Positions 49,797 through 57,033 of a stretch of 64,000 nucleotides of DNA are shown here, one piece after another. This DNA comes from an uncultured Poribacteria bacterium (GTDB lineage: Bacteria > Poribacteria > WGA-4E > WGA-3G): the NCBI GenBank assembly GCA_951828385.1, contig OX639973.1, positions 992,001 through 1,056,000 on the forward strand, in the 5' to 3' direction. A model generated the notes under the pieces. The model was not told the DNA's origin. It did not search any database and was given only the letters and a program-made list of their open reading frames with translations. The number at the start of each line of letters is the position of its first letter. The first letter of the stretch is position 1. The position numbers and the translations under genes were made by a program.

Positions 49797-50765
49797 TTAA
49801 CCTGACACAACGCTTGCTCCAAGGTTGTTCGCCTGTGTGATAAAACAGGTGCCACCATCCGGTAGCGTTTTCAGAAATGTGTCGGTTTCTTGTTTTAGCC
49901 TCTCAATATCTTCTGCTATCACGCAAATCGCTGGTCCCCAACTACTAACACCTGCCCCGAATGCATCAGTGTCCCGCAAGTAGTCAAGCGTCAATTGCAG
50001 CTCAGCACCTTGTGCCTCAATTTCTACGCGCTTCCACCCAAACGTCTGAATATTGTTTAAGGCTTTGCCAAAGTTGGACATATCATTTTCAATGAGGGCA
50101 GGAAGTACCTGGAGCAGTAAGATGTGTGAGAGTTTCTGCGCAACCTCCTCCGGTTGCGGACACAGCGTACGAAATAGTTCTACCTCTGTATCGCCGTAAA
50201 TTCTCGAACAATTCGGCATTACAATCAACAGTGGCAATTCTGGAAATGGATAACGGAATAAAATCGGTGGTGGTTGAATATCCGCAACAGCAGAGGAGGG
50301 AAGGAACGAAGCTTTTTCTTCAGGAAAACGGTGCCCACCATCAACGATGAACCCGCCAGTATCAAACGCTGCAACGCCAATCCCTGAAGTCCCCCCGCGC
50401 CCGACAGCTTGGGCGAGTTCTTGGACCCCGAGTCCGAGTTGATACAACACATTGACAGCCTGGGCAATGCCGAGTGCGAGTTGGGTTCCAGACCCGAATC
50501 CACAATGCATTGGGATTTCAGATTCAAACGTTAGCTTAATACCGGGAAACGGATAGGCTTTTTGAAATCGTTGGAGCACAGCAACAGCGCGGTCACGGTA
50601 CACAGAAGTCGCAATATCAATACGTGTTGCCCGCTCAGCGATGATTTGGAAATTAGGTTCAGCAATCGCAAGCCCGAATCCACCATCAACCCGCCCCAAT
50701 GCCCCATTTAAGTCAAGCAGGGAAAAGTGTAAGCGGGACGGAGTCGTAATTTTGACGTGGTGCAT
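49797..50765 (-). CDS. Beta-ribofuranosylaminobenzene 5'-phosphate synthase-like GHMP-superfamily protein
   Basis: A 322-residue protein. TPSRLHFSLLDLNGALGRVD, GGFGLAIAEPN and IPMHCGFGSGTQLALGIAQA with GRGGTSGIGVAAFDTGGFIV closely follow beta-RFAP synthase, which joins PRPP and 4-hydroxybenzoate (or p-aminobenzoate) in tetrahydromethanopterin synthesis. The GHMP-type glycine-rich loop is clear. In bacteria this enzyme marks C1 carriers of methylotrophs and some other phyla. No other methanopterin gene is in the window. It starts at ATG and is convergent with nfuA. Confidence 0.8.
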   Translation of the reverse strand: MHHVKITTPSRLHFSLLDLNGALGRVDGGFGLAIAEPNFQIIAERATRIDIATSVYRDRAVAVLQRFQKAYPFPGIKLTFESEIPMHCGFGSGTQLALGIAQAVNVLYQLGLGVQELAQAVGRGGTSGIGVAAFDTGGFIVDGGHRFPEEKASFLPSSAVADIQPPPILFRYPFPELPLLIVMPNCSRIYGDTEVELFRTLCPQPEEVAQKLSHILLLQVLPALIENDMSNFGKALNNIQTFGWKRVEIEAQGAELQLTLDYLRDTDAFGAGVSSWGPAICVIAEDIERLKQETDTFLKTLPDGGTCFITQANNLGASVVSG

Positions 50766-50835: not shown

Positions 50836-51540
50836 TCAGTCAGCCGCAGTTTCCTCATATCCATTCCGTCTGACATCTTGTTCAATTAAACCGTCTCGGA
50901 TGTGGAGTACCCGTTTTGCATGCTCAGCGACTTCCGCTTCGTGTGTCACCATGATGATGGTATTGCCTTCATCGTTCAACCTATTGAAGATCGCCATAAT
51001 TTCTGTCCCGGAACGCGTGTCCAAGTTTCCCGTCGGTTCATCGGCAAAAATCATTGAGGGTTTGTTGACTAAAGCCCGAGCGATTGCAACCCGTTGAATT
51101 TGCCCACCAGATAACTCGGTTGACTTGTGATCAACGCGATCCGCTAAGCCGACAGCTTCCAAGGACTCAAATGCGCGTCGTTTCCGCTCTTTTCTCCCCA
51201 AACCCGAGTAGATAAGCGGTAATTCAACATTGTTGAGCGCGCTCGTCCGCGGCAGCAGGTTAAAGGATTGAAAAACAAAACCGATCTTCTTATTGCGAAT
51301 GTCTGCGAGGCGATTATCGGAAAGCTTGCCGACTTCTTCGCCTTCAAGGAAGTAATCCCCCGATGTTGGCGTTGCGAGACACCCTAAGATATCCATCATG
51401 GTTGATTTACCGGAACCGGACGGTCCCATAATAGCGAGGAACTCACCTTGTGTTATGGTGAAACTCACACCTCGCAGCGCGTGTACCTGTACATCTCCCA
51501 TTTGGTAGACTTTTGTCAAATCTCGTACATCTATTAGCAT
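50836..51540 (-). CDS. ABC transporter ATP-binding protein, MacB/LolD type
   Basis: A 234-residue ATPase. Walker A is GPSGSGKST, the Q-loop region [20 protein letters not shown], the signature [15 protein letters not shown], Walker [15 protein letters not shown]. This is the MacB/LolD/FtsE subgroup. It is a stand-alone domain, without the fused permease of MacB. It follows the membrane fusion protein and TolC-type genes on the same strand after 102 bases, forming an export operon whose permease is not here. Confidence 0.93.
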
Positions 51541-51642: not shown

Positions 51643-53604
51643 TTACTCATCGTCGCCTTCGTCCTCCATTTGTCCCTTTGTTAATTCCTGCATAGAAGGC
51701 ACAAAAACGCGATCGCCTTCCTTCAAACCGCCCGTGATTTGAAAGTGTGTGTTGTTGCGCTGTCCGATTGTAATGTGGGTTTTAACGCCTTTTTCCGCTT
51801 TGCCTTTACTGGGTTTACCAGTATCTAACTTGACAAAGTACTGTCGTTCGCTACTCACTTCGGCTTCTATATCGGGAAGGACGTTTTGGTCGGCGATAAC
51901 AATCCCGATCTTTGTCGGGCCCTTGCGCAAGCCTTTCTGCTGCCCTTCAAGTAAAATTTCGAGGTTGCCTCGCGCTTTTTCGCTGTCGATTTTACCGACC
52001 TTTCCAGCGAATTCTCTTCCGATAAGATTCCGAATTTTGAGGGCTTGACCTTCCTGAAATTGCCCGAGAGCTGCAGCGTCTACGTTCGCTTTAACAGTGA
52101 AAACCTCCGGACTGAGCACAGCGGGAATCGGTAGTTGTAGGATATCCGATTCTTGAAACACAATGATATCGACATCTGCAGACATACCGGGCCGCAATTC
52201 AGGCGGCGAACCGATAACTTCTACATCTACCTCAAAAGTAATGACAGAGCTCTGATTTTGCGGACCGCGCTGCGTTGCACTCGGTGAAATCTCGCTCACC
52301 CTACCGGGAAAGACACGACCGGGATAACTATCAACGGTGATCTCGGAGCGTTGTCCTACCTCTATTTTTCCGATTTCGACCTGGTTGATTTGCGTCCTGA
52401 CAATCATTTGGTCAAGGTCAGCGATACGCATGATCGCCTCACCGCGTGAAAATGAGGAACGGCCGGACGTGATAATTTCACCTTCCTCTACAATGAGACG
52501 CGTAATCGTGCCAGCCATCGGCGCCGTGACCGTTGTCCAGTCGTGACGCTCTTGCTGAGATTTAAGTTGGCTTTCCGCTTGAAGGAGACTCGCTTTGGCA
52601 CTCACCTCTGAATGTATTGTTAACTCCTTTTCTTCTTCTATCGTCTCTTGTATCTGTTGGAGTCGGGTTTGTGAATCTTCAAGTTCCGCTTCGTACTGCT
52701 TCTGCTGTGCTTTTAAGGAGTCTTTAAGTGTATCAACGTTCTTTTTATTTAGCTCAAGCGTCGATTGTCGGTTTTCTATCGCTTTCTTGCGAGTGTTAAG
52801 GTTCTCATCTTGGGATTTTATGGTTTCCTTTTGTGATTCTACCTCTTTAAGCGCAGTATCGTACTGTGACTTAGCGACAATAAGTTGTCTCTGAGAGTCC
52901 TCTAACGCCTTTTTCGAGATGAGCTCCTTATCATAAAGTTTTTTGTTACGCTCATGCTCGGACTTTGTCGTCTCATACGAGATGTCAGCGGATTCAACGG
53001 CGGACTCTGCGCGTTCCAGGTTTAATTTCGCTTGTCCCAATGCGATTTCTGCCTGCTTCAAGGCGATATTATCTTGATCCAGTGAGTTCTTTGTCGTTGC
53101 GACTAAGGTCTCAGCCTCTGTGATCCGTTGCTGTGTGTTTGCAACGAAAGAATCTAAAGTCGCTTGTGCCTTTAAAACAGAATTTCGCGCTTGTGCGAGA
53201 CTACTCTCCTGCTGTTTCTCAGTAATCGTAATTCTGAGCCGTGCGCGCTCAAGTTCAGCCTTGCGTGCGTTATAGTTCGCCTCCGCCTGCTTCTTCTGCT
53301 CCAAAATCTGTTTTTCATCAATGCGAAGAAGGGGTTGCCCCATCTCAACTTTTTGCGCCTCATCAACGAGAATTTTAACGATCTCACCTTCCACGTTTGA
53401 GCGGACATCCACCTCTATAAAGGAACGTAAAGTGCCAGACTCACGTACGCGAACAAGGAATTCGCCGCGGCGGACGACTTCCTGCTTGGCTTCGCCCTCC
53501 TTCTCTTTTTGACCAAAGTTCATACGGGTAGCACCGATCGCGCCAACAGCAATAACGACCCCAGCAACTATCCCGATGATAATCCACTTTTTGCGATTCT
53601 TCAT
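51643..53604 (-). CDS. MacA/HlyD-type membrane fusion protein with very long coiled coil
   Basis: A 653-residue periplasmic adaptor. After an inner-membrane anchor (KKWIIIGIVAGVVIAVGAIG) come a lipoyl/barrel-sandwich half (GEIVKILVDEAQKVEMGQPL), about 290 residues of coiled coil (ETIKSQDENLNTRKKAIENR) and the second half (TVTAPMAGTITRLIVEEGEI), then beta-barrel domains ending in KEGDRVFVPSMQEL. MacA is about 370 residues, so the hairpin is much longer than usual and could span a wide periplasm. It starts (MKNRKKW) two bases before the upstream tolC-like gene's stop region. Confidence 0.88.
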   Translation of the reverse strand: MKNRKKWIIIGIVAGVVIAVGAIGATRMNFGQKEKEGEAKQEVVRRGEFLVRVRESGTLRSFIEVDVRSNVEGEIVKILVDEAQKVEMGQPLLRIDEKQILEQKKQAEANYNARKAELERARLRITITEKQQESSLAQARNSVLKAQATLDSFVANTQQRITEAETLVATTKNSLDQDNIALKQAEIALGQAKLNLERAESAVESADISYETTKSEHERNKKLYDKELISKKALEDSQRQLIVAKSQYDTALKEVESQKETIKSQDENLNTRKKAIENRQSTLELNKKNVDTLKDSLKAQQKQYEAELEDSQTRLQQIQETIEEEKELTIHSEVSAKASLLQAESQLKSQQERHDWTTVTAPMAGTITRLIVEEGEIITSGRSSFSRGEAIMRIADLDQMIVRTQINQVEIGKIEVGQRSEITVDSYPGRVFPGRVSEISPSATQRGPQNQSSVITFEVDVEVIGSPPELRPGMSADVDIIVFQESDILQLPIPAVLSPEVFTVKANVDAAALGQFQEGQALKIRNLIGREFAGKVGKIDSEKARGNLEILLEGQQKGLRKGPTKIGIVIADQNVLPDIEAEVSSERQYFVKLDTGKPSKGKAEKGVKTHITIGQRNNTHFQITGGLKEGDRVFVPSMQELTKGQMEDEGDDE

Positions 53605-53605
53605 G

Positions 53606-55006
53606 CTACTGTAAAACCCCCATAGCATCCTGTAGACGGATCTGTGTAATTTTATAGTCGTAGAATGCATTCACCTCATTCGTCAAGGCTTGTGCGTAAC
53701 TCGTTTGGGCATCAAGCAATTCGAGCAAGATCGCTTTGCCGACATCAAATCGCCCTTGAATCACTTCCAAACTCAACTGGGCATTGTTAACCTGTTTCTT
53801 GGAGATATCAACGACGCTTTCACCGCGTTCAAGATTCAGATAGGCTTGCCGAACGGCGAGCGCAACGCTCCGCTCTAAGTCGCTTGCGTTTTCACGACTT
53901 TGCTCCAACTGCATGTTTAACTCTTTCACACGGTTCCCCAAGACCCCGCCATCAAAAAGGGTGAAATTCAGGGATACCCCTGCGCTCCAACTTCGGAAAT
54001 CCGAGAAATTCTCACGTTCACGGAGGTAATCATCAAGATTAACGTTGTAGTCCACATCTGCGTTCAGACGGGGCCACCGCTGTAATCTCGCCAAAGTGAG
54101 GCTCCATTCTTGAGATTTTATTTGTGACTGTCTCTCTTGAAACTCCGGACGATTGCTCAGGGCAATCTGTATAGCTTCTTCAATTGGCATCACTACCCGC
54201 TCAATCGTTCCGCGATCTTGGTACAACTGATAGGATTCATCGACAGAAACAGTAAGCAAAATGCCGGGGTCTAATCCGAGGAGGCGTGGCAGCGTTGCTT
54301 GGGCAATTTGGAGTGAGCTGCGATTGTTCAACAGTGATAATTCATCATTTGCTTCTCGGAGTTCGGCGGTCGCGACATCCGCGGGGATAAGGGTGCCCGC
54401 CTCTACGAAATCCCTTGTTCGCTGTGTGTTTTCCTGCGATCTCGCTAAAACTTGTTCACTGACTTTGACAAGTTCTTGCCTTTTAAGAACATCGTAGTAA
54501 GCGACTGTAATATCAAGAATTAAGTCCTGCTTAGTCCTTTCATTTCGGCTAAGAGTAGCGGTTAGGTTCTCTTTCGCTTGTGCGAAACTCCCCTCTCTTT
54601 GTCCGTTATCCCAAAGTGTGTATTGTCCGCGCAGCCCTAAATTGTAGTTTTCGGGTTCAAAGCCAAAGTCGAGGCGATCCGAAAAATCGTAGTTGCCGTT
54701 TGCAAAAATTTGTGGGAAATATCCGGAGCGCGCATTTTTGACCCGAAGTTCTTGCATCGCGAGATTCAGGCGCGCATTTCGCATACTCGTCGATCTTTCT
54801 AAACCTATCTGGATACATTGCTCGAGGGTTAAAGGTTGCGATAAGTCAACTTCAGCAACAGGTTCTTGTGCACCCACACAAAGAACTACTGCAAACTGAA
54901 GGATAAGAACGGTTTTCATAAGCACGTTTTGGAAACTCGCACGCAGGCTCCCTTGGAACGCTGCGAGTCTTGATAAAACAGATAATTTTAATTTCCCGTG
55001 AATCAT
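53606..55006 (-). CDS. TolC family outer-membrane efflux protein
   Basis: A 466-residue outer-membrane factor with two OEP repeats of long helices (SQPLTLEQCIQIGLERSTSM; LNLERGESVVDISKKQVNNA). It would form the exit duct for the adaptor and ATPase encoded downstream. AAGGAGAGG fixes the ATG at MIHGKLKLS; the signal segment then lies further in (VLMKTVLILQFAVVLCVGAQ), so an internal ATG giving MKTVLILQ is an alternative start. First gene of the export operon. Confidence 0.88.
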   Translation of the reverse strand: MIHGKLKLSVLSRLAAFQGSLRASFQNVLMKTVLILQFAVVLCVGAQEPVAEVDLSQPLTLEQCIQIGLERSTSMRNARLNLAMQELRVKNARSGYFPQIFANGNYDFSDRLDFGFEPENYNLGLRGQYTLWDNGQREGSFAQAKENLTATLSRNERTKQDLILDITVAYYDVLKRQELVKVSEQVLARSQENTQRTRDFVEAGTLIPADVATAELREANDELSLLNNRSSLQIAQATLPRLLGLDPGILLTVSVDESYQLYQDRGTIERVVMPIEEAIQIALSNRPEFQERQSQIKSQEWSLTLARLQRWPRLNADVDYNVNLDDYLRERENFSDFRSWSAGVSLNFTLFDGGVLGNRVKELNMQLEQSRENASDLERSVALAVRQAYLNLERGESVVDISKKQVNNAQLSLEVIQGRFDVGKAILLELLDAQTSYAQALTNEVNAFYDYKITQIRLQDAMGVLQ

Positions 55007-55330
55007 TAACCTCTCCTTGTCCATTCCGACGCTTATGGGCATGCTTTCCAAGCGTACGCCCGGCACCGGTTCAACACTTTCAGTCAGCCTTGGGAAGTTG
55101 TAAAGTTCACCAAAACCGTATTATTATATAGATTACAGCGTCAATGCGAGTCTCTTCAATTCGCTCTGGTGCCAGTCCTAACTTCTAAGCACTCCCAAAT
55201 GTGAGACAACGACTTTAATTTTCTAAAAGCAAGTTTTAATTTGCAAGCACCATCAAAAAGACTTTATCTATTTTGACGCAATGCTTCATTAAAAGTTTAG
55301 ACATTTTACGCCCCAAATTTGTTCTTTTTC

Positions 55331-55359
55331 TTGCAATTGCTTGGGATTTTTGCTAAACT
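55331..55359 (+). promoter_or_regulatory. Possible promoter of the caspase-fold/PEGA gene
   Basis: -35 TTGCAA and -10 TAAACT are 17 bp apart, about 45 bases before the ATG. The remaining divergent gap 55007-55404 shows no gene. Confidence 0.4.
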
Positions 55360-55404
55360 ACTCTGTTAAATAAAAACATTGAAGGATAATTCGCGGATAA
55401 AAAC

Positions 55405-57033
55405 ATGCTACAGCGGAGTTCCATTTTCACATCCATCCTTATCTGTATTATATTCGTTACCGTCGCGACACCAGCGTTCTCGGTTGATTCTGGCACCTAC
55501 TGGCTGCTTGTAGACGCAACGCCGGAGGCACGGGCACATGCGCAACTGAATTCACTCACCGAACTCCTAACATCACGAGGAAAGGTGCCGAGTGAGCAAA
55601 TCTATCATGTTGAAGGCGAGAATGCCACAACGGAAGAGATCCACGCACTCCTCCAAGAAATTGGACGACAGATGCAGACGCAGGACACTTTAGTTTTTCT
55701 ATTCCACGGGATGGTCACTAAACCGAGAGGTATGCCCTCGATGCGTTTGATAATCGACGGAGATGAAGATGGAATTCAAGATTCCACACTTAACGGATGG
55801 TTTAGAGAGCATGAGAGAGAACGCACGGTTGTGATTGTCGATGGTTACACGCAGGATACAAACTTAAGTGCTTACTATGGCAACCGTGAGACACTCGGTA
55901 CGGCTGCGCTGAATGTGATTCAACCGGCTGAAAAAGCAGCGCACACTACACTCCTTCAAAAACTTCACGATGCGCTCGCCGCAGATACAACGGATTCAGA
56001 CGATAATCGGCAGCTGAGCATCGTTGAAGCGTATGAGTTGCTGCAAGCAAATCTCGAGTCCTCGGATGCGATTCTTGCACCAACAGGTGATGTTGACGCA
56101 GCACTGCTTAAACTGAGTCCTGCGATTAAGATCACAACATTTCCCGACGGTGCACAAATTTTCATCAACGATGTAGAAGCCGGAAATACACCGAAACTCA
56201 TCACAGAGAACCTACAACAAGGTACTTCTACAGTATCCGTAAAGAAAGTTGGGTACATTACTCCACCCTCCAAAACTGCGGAATTGCAGTTGGTGCTTGG
56301 AGAGTCCGTCCACATCGGTTGGGCACTTGATTCTATCGCCGTTCATGGTAGCGTTAAAGGTGTCGCTGGTGCGTCGGCTGCCGACGCTCTGGTTTGGATA
56401 GATGGAACAGCATATCAACAGACCGTGGCGGCTGATGGCATGTTTCGTTTTGACGATTGGAAAGACTCAGATTTACTAACAGTCGGCGAAACATATTCAC
56501 TCTACGCAAAACAGGGTAACCAGAATTACGGTTCGGCACCTTTCATATTTGACGGTTATAGCGATATAACCCAATCGATCCAGCTCATTAAGAGGAGTTG
56601 GTTTGAGATCGCACAAATTGAATTTGACCGAGATAACCATCAAGGTGCCGTCACTGCTTTTCAGAACGGGATTGAGCGCACGACAAATTTCCCACAAATG
56701 TCTCAAGATTTAACAGTCTTACTTCTCAGTTCCTTCGCCGACGCGTTAGAGAAGCAAGACGTTCAAGATGTTAACTATCTGGTGGTTACTGCGAAACTTG
56801 CGGAGCAGCTAAACCAACCTGCGCTTGCAAAAAAGTATTGGGAAGAGATCAAAACAAAAGCAGAAAAAGGAACGCCTGCCGCCGAATTAGCGAGTCAACG
56901 GTTGTGGCAGCTCAATCGTGGTCGCTATCTTCTCAATATTGGTCTTATTGTACTGTTGGTAGTGCTCCTGGTATCCGGGGCGTGGACGTATTACAGATAC
57001 CGGAAATCCAAACAAACGGCACAGGAAGCGTAA
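55405..57033 (+). CDS. Exported caspase-fold (C14-like) protein with PEGA domain, catalytic Cys lost
   Basis: A 542-residue protein with signal peptide (TPAFS) and a C-terminal membrane helix (LIVLLVVLLVSGAWTYY). Residues 30-215 resemble a caspase-like domain: LVFLFHGMVTK gives the His-Gly pair (H101), and the strand RTVVIVDGYTQDT is where a Cys would follow the Asp, but it reads D146-G-Y. Residues 230-300 are a PEGA domain (TTFPDGAQIFINDVEAGNTP). A carboxypeptidase-like beta domain and TPR-like helices follow. It is probably an envelope-anchored pseudoprotease or scaffold. Caspase assignment is moderate. Confidence 0.7.
   Translation: MLQRSSIFTSILICIIFVTVATPAFSVDSGTYWLLVDATPEARAHAQLNSLTELLTSRGKVPSEQIYHVEGENATTEEIHALLQEIGRQMQTQDTLVFLFHGMVTKPRGMPSMRLIIDGDEDGIQDSTLNGWFREHERERTVVIVDGYTQDTNLSAYYGNRETLGTAALNVIQPAEKAAHTTLLQKLHDALAADTTDSDDNRQLSIVEAYELLQANLESSDAILAPTGDVDAALLKLSPAIKITTFPDGAQIFINDVEAGNTPKLITENLQQGTSTVSVKKVGYITPPSKTAELQLVLGESVHIGWALDSIAVHGSVKGVAGASAADALVWIDGTAYQQTVAADGMFRFDDWKDSDLLTVGETYSLYAKQGNQNYGSAPFIFDGYSDITQSIQLIKRSWFEIAQIEFDRDNHQGAVTAFQNGIERTTNFPQMSQDLTVLLLSSFADALEKQDVQDVNYLVVTAKLAEQLNQPALAKKYWEEIKTKAEKGTPAAELASQRLWQLNRGRYLLNIGLIVLLVVLLVSGAWTYYRYRKSKQTAQEA

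Follow-up and report, generated by a model that had tools for sequence, protein, structure and literature searches.

A gene that is present as a single copy in the genome of a Poribacteria bacterium encodes a protein whose first domain is homologous to caspases (clan CD, the C14 superfamily) and which, as far as its sequence tells, is a pseudoenzyme with a dead active site. The gene lies in the window, that is, the whole 64,000-nucleotide stretch of DNA analyzed here. We consider it on balance probable that the product is an envelope-anchored binding or scaffold protein, or a receptor, and no protease; this role had been suggested in the initial annotation and is the best reading of the predicted features. 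The segments of the protein and the genes around it are listed in Table 1.

Table 1. Segments of the pseudocaspase and neighboring genes, with their positions in the window (aa, residues of the protein).
Feature	Position	Strand	Basis
Pseudocaspase gene, 542 aa	55405..57033	+	ORF call
Signal peptide, aa 1-26 (approximate)	55405..55482	+	Hydropathy up to 2.35 at aa 7-25
Caspase-like domain, aa 30-238	55492..56118	+	hhalign to C14 profile; VIA-align 2 over aa 26-150
FLFHG, aa 98-102, end of strand 3; catalytic His register probably M103	55696..55710	+	
Rebuilt pseudo-active site, aa 146-165: D146-G-Y148-T-x-D151-x-N-L-x-x-Y-Y-x-N160-R161-x-x-L-G165	55840..55899	+	Column counts
EF-hand-like loop, aa 197-208 (D-x-D-x-N-R-x-L-S-x-x-E)	55993..56028	+	Pattern count
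PEGA domain match, aa 240-285	56122..56259	+	PF08308, E 1.3e-6
Carboxypeptidase-regulatory-like beta domain, aa 308-396 (approximate)	56326..56592	+	PF13620 in family members
Helical TPR-like region, aa 398-505	56596..56919	+	TPR_2, profile alignment, low-confidence model helices
Transmembrane helix, aa 506-530 (about)	56920..56994	+	Hydropathy up to 2.54
Short basic tail, aa 531-542, predicted cytoplasmic	56995..57030	+	Sequence; R531 conserved
Divergent intergenic region, 338 nt, shared with export operon	55067..55404	.	
TolC-type outer membrane efflux protein	53606..55066	-	PF02321, E 7.6e-58
HlyD-type membrane fusion protein	51643..53670	-	PF13437, E 1.9e-16
ABC transporter ATPase	50836..51540	-	PF00005, E 2e-32
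GHMP kinase gene, downstream of export operon	49797-50765		

The pseudocaspase gene occurs once in its own genome (6.66 Mb, one contig), and relatives whose proteins are 93% and 81% identical belong to Candidatus Poribacteria. Orthologues scoring at least 356 bits are found in 75 of the 82 class genomes searched, each as a single copy. The two genomes from other classes of the phylum yielded no orthologue, and in 15 genomes from outside it the best match to the family profile reached 43 bits, far short of 356. Comparison with five relatives gives a dN/dS of 0.12-0.19 for the whole gene. Given these ratios and the presence of one copy in 75/82 genomes of the class, the gene is under purifying selection and is not decaying. 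Such a distribution also means that the gene does not look symbiont-specific; the phylum comprises both sponge-associated and free-living lineages (PMC8546597). The column counts below refer to an alignment of 67 rows, made up of the window protein and 66 loci, in which 65 of the 75 orthologue-bearing genomes of the class are represented and the other 10 are not. Seven loci (L001, L031-L033, L060, L062, and L063) were dropped because they duplicate the window or genomes already included, and L034 was dropped as a match to PEGA only. Two divergent paralogues, L058 and L059, are included in the 67-row counts and excluded from the 65-row profile used for hhalign.

Homology to caspases emerges when whole families are compared. 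The profile of 65 orthologue rows aligns with 30 C14 domains from related genomes over 195 columns (hhalign probability 99.0, E 4.8e-18), and the 17 rows lacking an HG pair, compared with 30 C14 proteins, give E 6e-20; a reversed C14 profile, used as a control, gives a probability of 0.2. In genome searches, the family profile matches C14 proteins, for example G069:C471 (E 2.3e-14), a place that is matched by the C14 model too. Two relatives that carry PEGA and regulatory-like domains score as C14 (E 3.6e-18 and 2.7e-18) while having Arg/Ser in place of His/Cys, and are intermediate proteins. Single sequences are silent: PF00656 (Peptidase C14) does not match the window protein at E 1 or, at E 0.01, any of 27 family members.

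Structure comparison points the same way. Both AlphaFold models are of poor quality (mean pLDDT 45.7 and 42.1) because the input consisted of four close sequences; they place strands, at low confidence, near aa 31-37, 66-70, 95-101, and 142-146, in an order that fits the caspase core. When one such poor model was submitted to VIA-align 2, all 50 rows listed were clan CD proteins (caspases, metacaspases, or legumain), with the best Z score, 8.0, to metacaspase 4 and a Z of 7.7 to Yca1; values under 8 can reflect a mere common arrangement. The uniformity of that list, obtained with a low-confidence model, speaks for more than a common arrangement. Foldseek of the model against the PDB gave no match at E 0.001, and 13 of the 50 matches listed were caspases; when the family profile was run against PDB sequences, 18 entries were listed, none a caspase and nearly all of them designed repeat or assembly proteins. 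The caspase fold proposed in the initial annotation thus came through both the profile and the structure comparison with C14 proteins. A DnaK substrate-binding-like fold for the first domain can practically be set aside. A phmmer search relates the segment at 55501-55857 (aa 33-151) to DnaK chains (E 5.5e-4), and weak matches occur in DnaK-sized long ORFs of the genomes, but this signal is gone with the family profile while the caspase signal strengthens, and the order of the modelled strands fits that of a caspase; the DnaK similarity is chance-like.

The catalytic dyad has been lost. Position 148, which corresponds to the catalytic Cys and lies in the segment IVDGYTQ (aa 144-150), is never Cys in the 67 rows, in agreement with the loss described earlier: it is Tyr in 58, Arg in 4, and Leu, Phe, Met, Ile, and Ser in one each, the Ser occurring solely in the divergent row L059. 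Among the 65 orthologue rows without the divergent paralogues, Tyr is found in 57 and a His-Cys dyad in none. The catalytic His position, 103, is Met in 23 rows, Glu in 8, Phe in 7, and Tyr in 6, with others in the remainder and His in only 1/67; no row combines H103 with C148. At the equivalent positions, the C14 set has His in 30/30 and Cys in 29/30 proteins.

The initial annotation had taken the HG pair of FLFHG to be the retained His-Gly, which is probably wrong. In the ungapped register obtained with the 17 rows lacking HG and the 30 C14 proteins, H101-G102 falls on the S-G of S-G-H-G and M103 corresponds to the catalytic His, so that H101 likely precedes the catalytic position by two residues and stands at a place where caspases carry Ser or Ala. 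This register mostly rejects the pair as the source of a catalytic His. Some doubt comes from hhalign, which opens a gap and places HG on HG when HG-bearing rows are included. A second source of doubt is the low-confidence structure alignments, which at their end pair the catalytic Cys with T149 instead of Y148 and so differ by one residue from the sequence alignment. Neither arrangement restores a His-Cys dyad. They would be the basis for an enzyme that still acts through another nucleophile, T149, or through a dyad shifted to the HG pair, which we regard as very improbable: position 149 is Thr in 49 rows, Ala in 12, Ser in 5, and Leu in 1, and Arg replaces H101 in 20/67. A Cys within residues 146-150 is found at 147 only, in four rows (L048-L050 and L059). 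This residue was considered as a surviving nucleophile and rejected, being located one residue before the catalytic position; 4 of the 30 C14 proteins share a Cys there beside the real one.

The substrate pocket is degenerate as well. In TbMCA2, the S1 pocket is formed with two Asp residues, D95 and D211 (PMC4357240), and both positions are Asp in 30/30 proteins of the C14 set. The equivalent of D211, which adjoins the Cys, is retained as D146 in 65/67 rows. The equivalent of D95 is lost, position 47 being Leu in 17 rows, Gln in 9, Asp in 4, and other residues elsewhere, although the alignment at this position is less certain.

What occupies the former active site is strongly conserved. R161 is present in 64/67 rows and G165 in all 67, the segment spanning aa 142-170 has the lowest mean entropy (1.31 bits) among 11 segments measured, and dN/dS for aa 140-170 against the five relatives is 0-0.08. 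A second conserved element lies further along the domain. EF-hand calcium loops follow the ligand pattern D-x-[DNS]-x-[DNSG]...E, and the corresponding columns here are Asp197 in 67/67 rows, Asp/Asn199 in 66/67, Asn/Asp201 in 67/67, and Glu208 in 67/67. The complete pattern occurs in 66 of the 67 rows, as compared to 0.021 times per shuffled domain. Position 6 of the loop, where Gly is usual, is Arg in 62/67. The loop is a probable calcium-binding site, as predicted from this pattern. Because a loop of this kind also turns up at some place within the extracted region of 8 of the 30 C14 proteins, the loop may have been inherited and then fixed.

The remainder of the protein is consistent with the membrane anchorage proposed earlier. 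A hydrophobic N-terminus, in which no lipobox was seen by eye, is combined with a C-terminal transmembrane segment in which S524 and G525 are conserved. The predicted cytoplasmic side of the basic tail follows from the positive-inside rule, and the charge of the tail suggests that the protein, placed at the surface in the initial annotation, resides in the inner membrane with its bulk outside the cytoplasm. The PEGA assignment is also sound, the match in the window protein scoring 28.6 bits against a curated Pfam cut-off of 20.8, and PEGA is matched in 25 of 27 family members. PF13620 is found in 15/27 members at E 0.01, with those for which bits are given falling below the cut-off, and has no match in the window protein at E 1. 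As for the TPR-like part that had been named alongside PEGA, TPR_2 matches the window protein weakly at aa 398-425 (E 0.071, 13.7 bits versus a cut-off of 27). Weak TPR matches are seen in 3/27 family members at E 0.01, positions 405-431 of the family profile align to designed TPRs, and the region is modelled as helices in a low-confidence AlphaFold model.

These features can be assembled into a tentative mechanism. The signal peptide would export the protein, and the single C-terminal helix would hold it in the inner membrane as a type I protein, with all but the tail outside the cytoplasm if the predicted orientation is right. The caspase fold would be unable to cut, its Cys having become Tyr, its His Met, and one of its two pocket acids having gone. 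The rebuilt site and a bound calcium ion may together form a binding surface. The PEGA and regulatory-like beta domains would place the protein near the cell wall; PEGA is called peptidoglycan-associating in a survey of conflict systems (PMC7159879). Binding could then be relayed to partners through the TPR-like helices and the membrane helix. In this genome, the protein probably acts with, or is co-regulated with, the TolC-HlyD-ABC exporter encoded next to it.

The pseudocaspase gene is convergent with truD and divergent from the TolC-HlyD-ABC ATPase operon, and the exporter is the best-placed candidate partner here. A stronger version of this link, in which the pseudocaspase is a dedicated accessory of the exporter whose periplasmic role is to bind export substrates or assembly intermediates, appears unlikely, albeit worth serious consideration. 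Pfam confirms the TolC, HlyD, and ABC ATPase domains, and the TolC gene is the divergent upstream neighbor in 30/31 loci of the organism's own genus (the exception ends at a contig edge), in 2/2 of a second genus, and in 4/8 rows of family f4, whose proteins are about 40% identical. However, the same arrangement is found in only 2/12 loci of genus g3 and in 0/13 elsewhere (0/2 in family f2, 0/2 in f3, and 0/9 in other families of the class), and shared promoter regions may be due to chance or regulation. A few of the 66 loci have short flanks, and some of the misses could not have been seen. Since the genes are neighbors in no more than 38 of 66 loci, with 2/12 in one sister genus, the exporter link is not obligatory.

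In sister families, the candidate partner is a different one. Twenty genomes have a gene for a protein with a divergent diadenylate-cyclase-like domain, and in 12 of them it lies directly downstream of the pseudocaspase gene on the same strand; 10 of those 12 adjacencies are also in the 66-locus neighbor comparison. The protein is soluble, with a coiled coil (for example, L044:7747-8724). Its domain shows a modest similarity to DAC, by Pfam at E 1.6e-5 to 0.01, under the cut-off (in a second Pfam comparison mostly under it), and by hhalign at E 9.1e-8, with five sequences only. The DGA motif is retained and SEETSE is present. Cyclase activity is doubtful because the RHR motif reads RHN. Among the 97 genomes searched, the family is confined to this class; it is absent from the organism's own genome and from all 57 genomes of its own family that were searched. 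The pseudocaspase could be the sensor half of a pair that switches this partner across the membrane, as the adjacency, the DAC similarity, and the conserved S524 and G525 of the membrane helix would allow. We consider this improbable, given that most of the 57 own-family genomes devoid of the partner carry the pseudocaspase, that RHN stands in place of RHR, and that the tail available on the cytoplasmic side is only about 12 residues long.

The pseudocaspase also has to be seen against the C14 proteins of the genomes that carry it. In animals, cFLIP, a pseudocaspase that acts by binding, regulates active caspases, and by analogy the Poribacteria protein might act on the active caspases of its own cell as a decoy or a regulator. 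Its own genome has eight C14 places, and the search for paralogues that keep the Cys, called for in the initial annotation, found three proteins at about 2.415-2.424 Mb that retain both GHG and DSC by eye. An expansion of caspase homologues had been invoked earlier with symbionts in mind; the pseudocaspase itself is single-copy and class-wide, and is distinct from the C14 proteins, which are more numerous in this genome. Against a decoy stands the finding that 27 of the 74 pseudocaspase-bearing genomes searched, including the one-contig genome G065, have no C14 match at E 0.001, though genome incompleteness could hide some; the degenerate substrate pocket argues in the same direction. Because of these 27 genomes, control of caspases is unlikely as a general role, and a cFLIP-like function for the protein has, in our estimate, a slim chance. 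The cFLIP-like pseudocaspases of animals do share a dead fold and a binding role with the Poribacteria protein, which differs in being extracytoplasmic by prediction, single-copy, and often encoded in genomes with no detectable C14.

The C14 proteins and divergent relatives are themselves varied. The three proteins with intact motifs lie in a cluster (L083:5085-13911) of mostly FGE-bearing C14 proteins with nearly identical caspase domains, two of which are separated by an ORF that looks transposase-like by eye. At about 2.898 Mb (L084:5286-7379), a C14-PEGA-FGE protein keeps GHG and has His in place of the Cys (FDSHFSG); a locus in another genome (L115) has Arg at the equivalent position. Two adjoining proteins at about 1.119-1.122 Mb (L086:4822-8295) have two caspase-like domains each, with motifs altered in most of them, such as SGNG and TDTVSF; the motifs of these paralogues were read by eye, with Pfam support for some of the proteins. 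In genome G069, a divergent relative of 984 residues (L087:7488-10442) combines a part resembling the pseudocaspase with an AAA/STAND-like ATPase domain, and its neighbors are an Arg/Ser pseudocaspase of 720 aa and separate genes for ATPase-like proteins. The C14-PEGA-FGE proteins of the own genome share with the pseudocaspase the order of caspase and then PEGA (by Pfam at 2.898 Mb, by eye in the others). The own-genome C14 proteins differ from it in matching PF00656 and, for the most part, in having GHG and DSC intact; an FGE-sulfatase domain forms the end of most of them, whereas the pseudocaspase ends in a TPR-like region and a membrane helix.

Among described proteins, the nearest are the bacterial pseudo-orthocaspases (Klemencic et al. 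2019, PMC6426788), which have the same p20 fold without the His-Cys dyad and are reported there as conserved and presumed functional; the Poribacteria protein has the bacterial p20 fold and no dyad that define this group and is of neither the YS nor the YN subtype. At the dyad positions, the described proteins have Tyr-Ser or Tyr-Asn and the Poribacteria protein Met-Tyr; by the same account they keep both pocket Asp residues, one of which is lost here. The PEGA, regulatory-like, and TPR-like parts and the C-terminal membrane helix further set the Poribacteria protein apart from them. The main text of that study mentions neither Poribacteria nor PEGA, and about 90% of the dead bacterial caspases in its survey came from Alphaproteobacteria and Cyanobacteria (PMC6426788). 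Dead caspases are also common in some conflict systems, where those described by Kaur et al. (2020, PMC7159879) are likewise catalytically dead and are proposed to be regulators or binders. As described there, they occur in NTPase systems, fused to the vWA components; no such neighbor of the pseudocaspase was seen, the exception to this difference being the one divergent relative fused to an AAA ATPase domain. Among the open-access papers searched, judged by titles and the first lines of abstracts, we found none on a Poribacteria caspase gene; the one paper that brings PEGA domains and caspases together concerns fungal crystals, those on pseudocaspases and bacteria are general reviews, and the words "caspase" and "PEGA" are absent from the main texts of PMC3909097 and PMC8546597. 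With respect to the known pseudo-orthocaspases, the new elements are the single-copy core gene, the Met-Tyr site, the lost pocket acid, the fixed EF-hand-like loop, and the membrane-anchored PEGA architecture.

Our analysis supplies an annotation for a core gene that Pfam labels as PEGA only. It also makes a caspase fold that does not cut testable in a simple, single-copy setting, where the fold is kept even in genomes in which no C14 protein was found. A more far-reaching and speculative proposal, to which we give little weight, is that the dead site and the EF-hand-like loop form one ligand-gated, calcium-dependent receptor surface outside the cytoplasm, from which the membrane helix relays to the cyclase-like neighbor in sister families. 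If true, the pseudocaspase would be a caspase-derived bacterial transmembrane signalling receptor that needs no protease.
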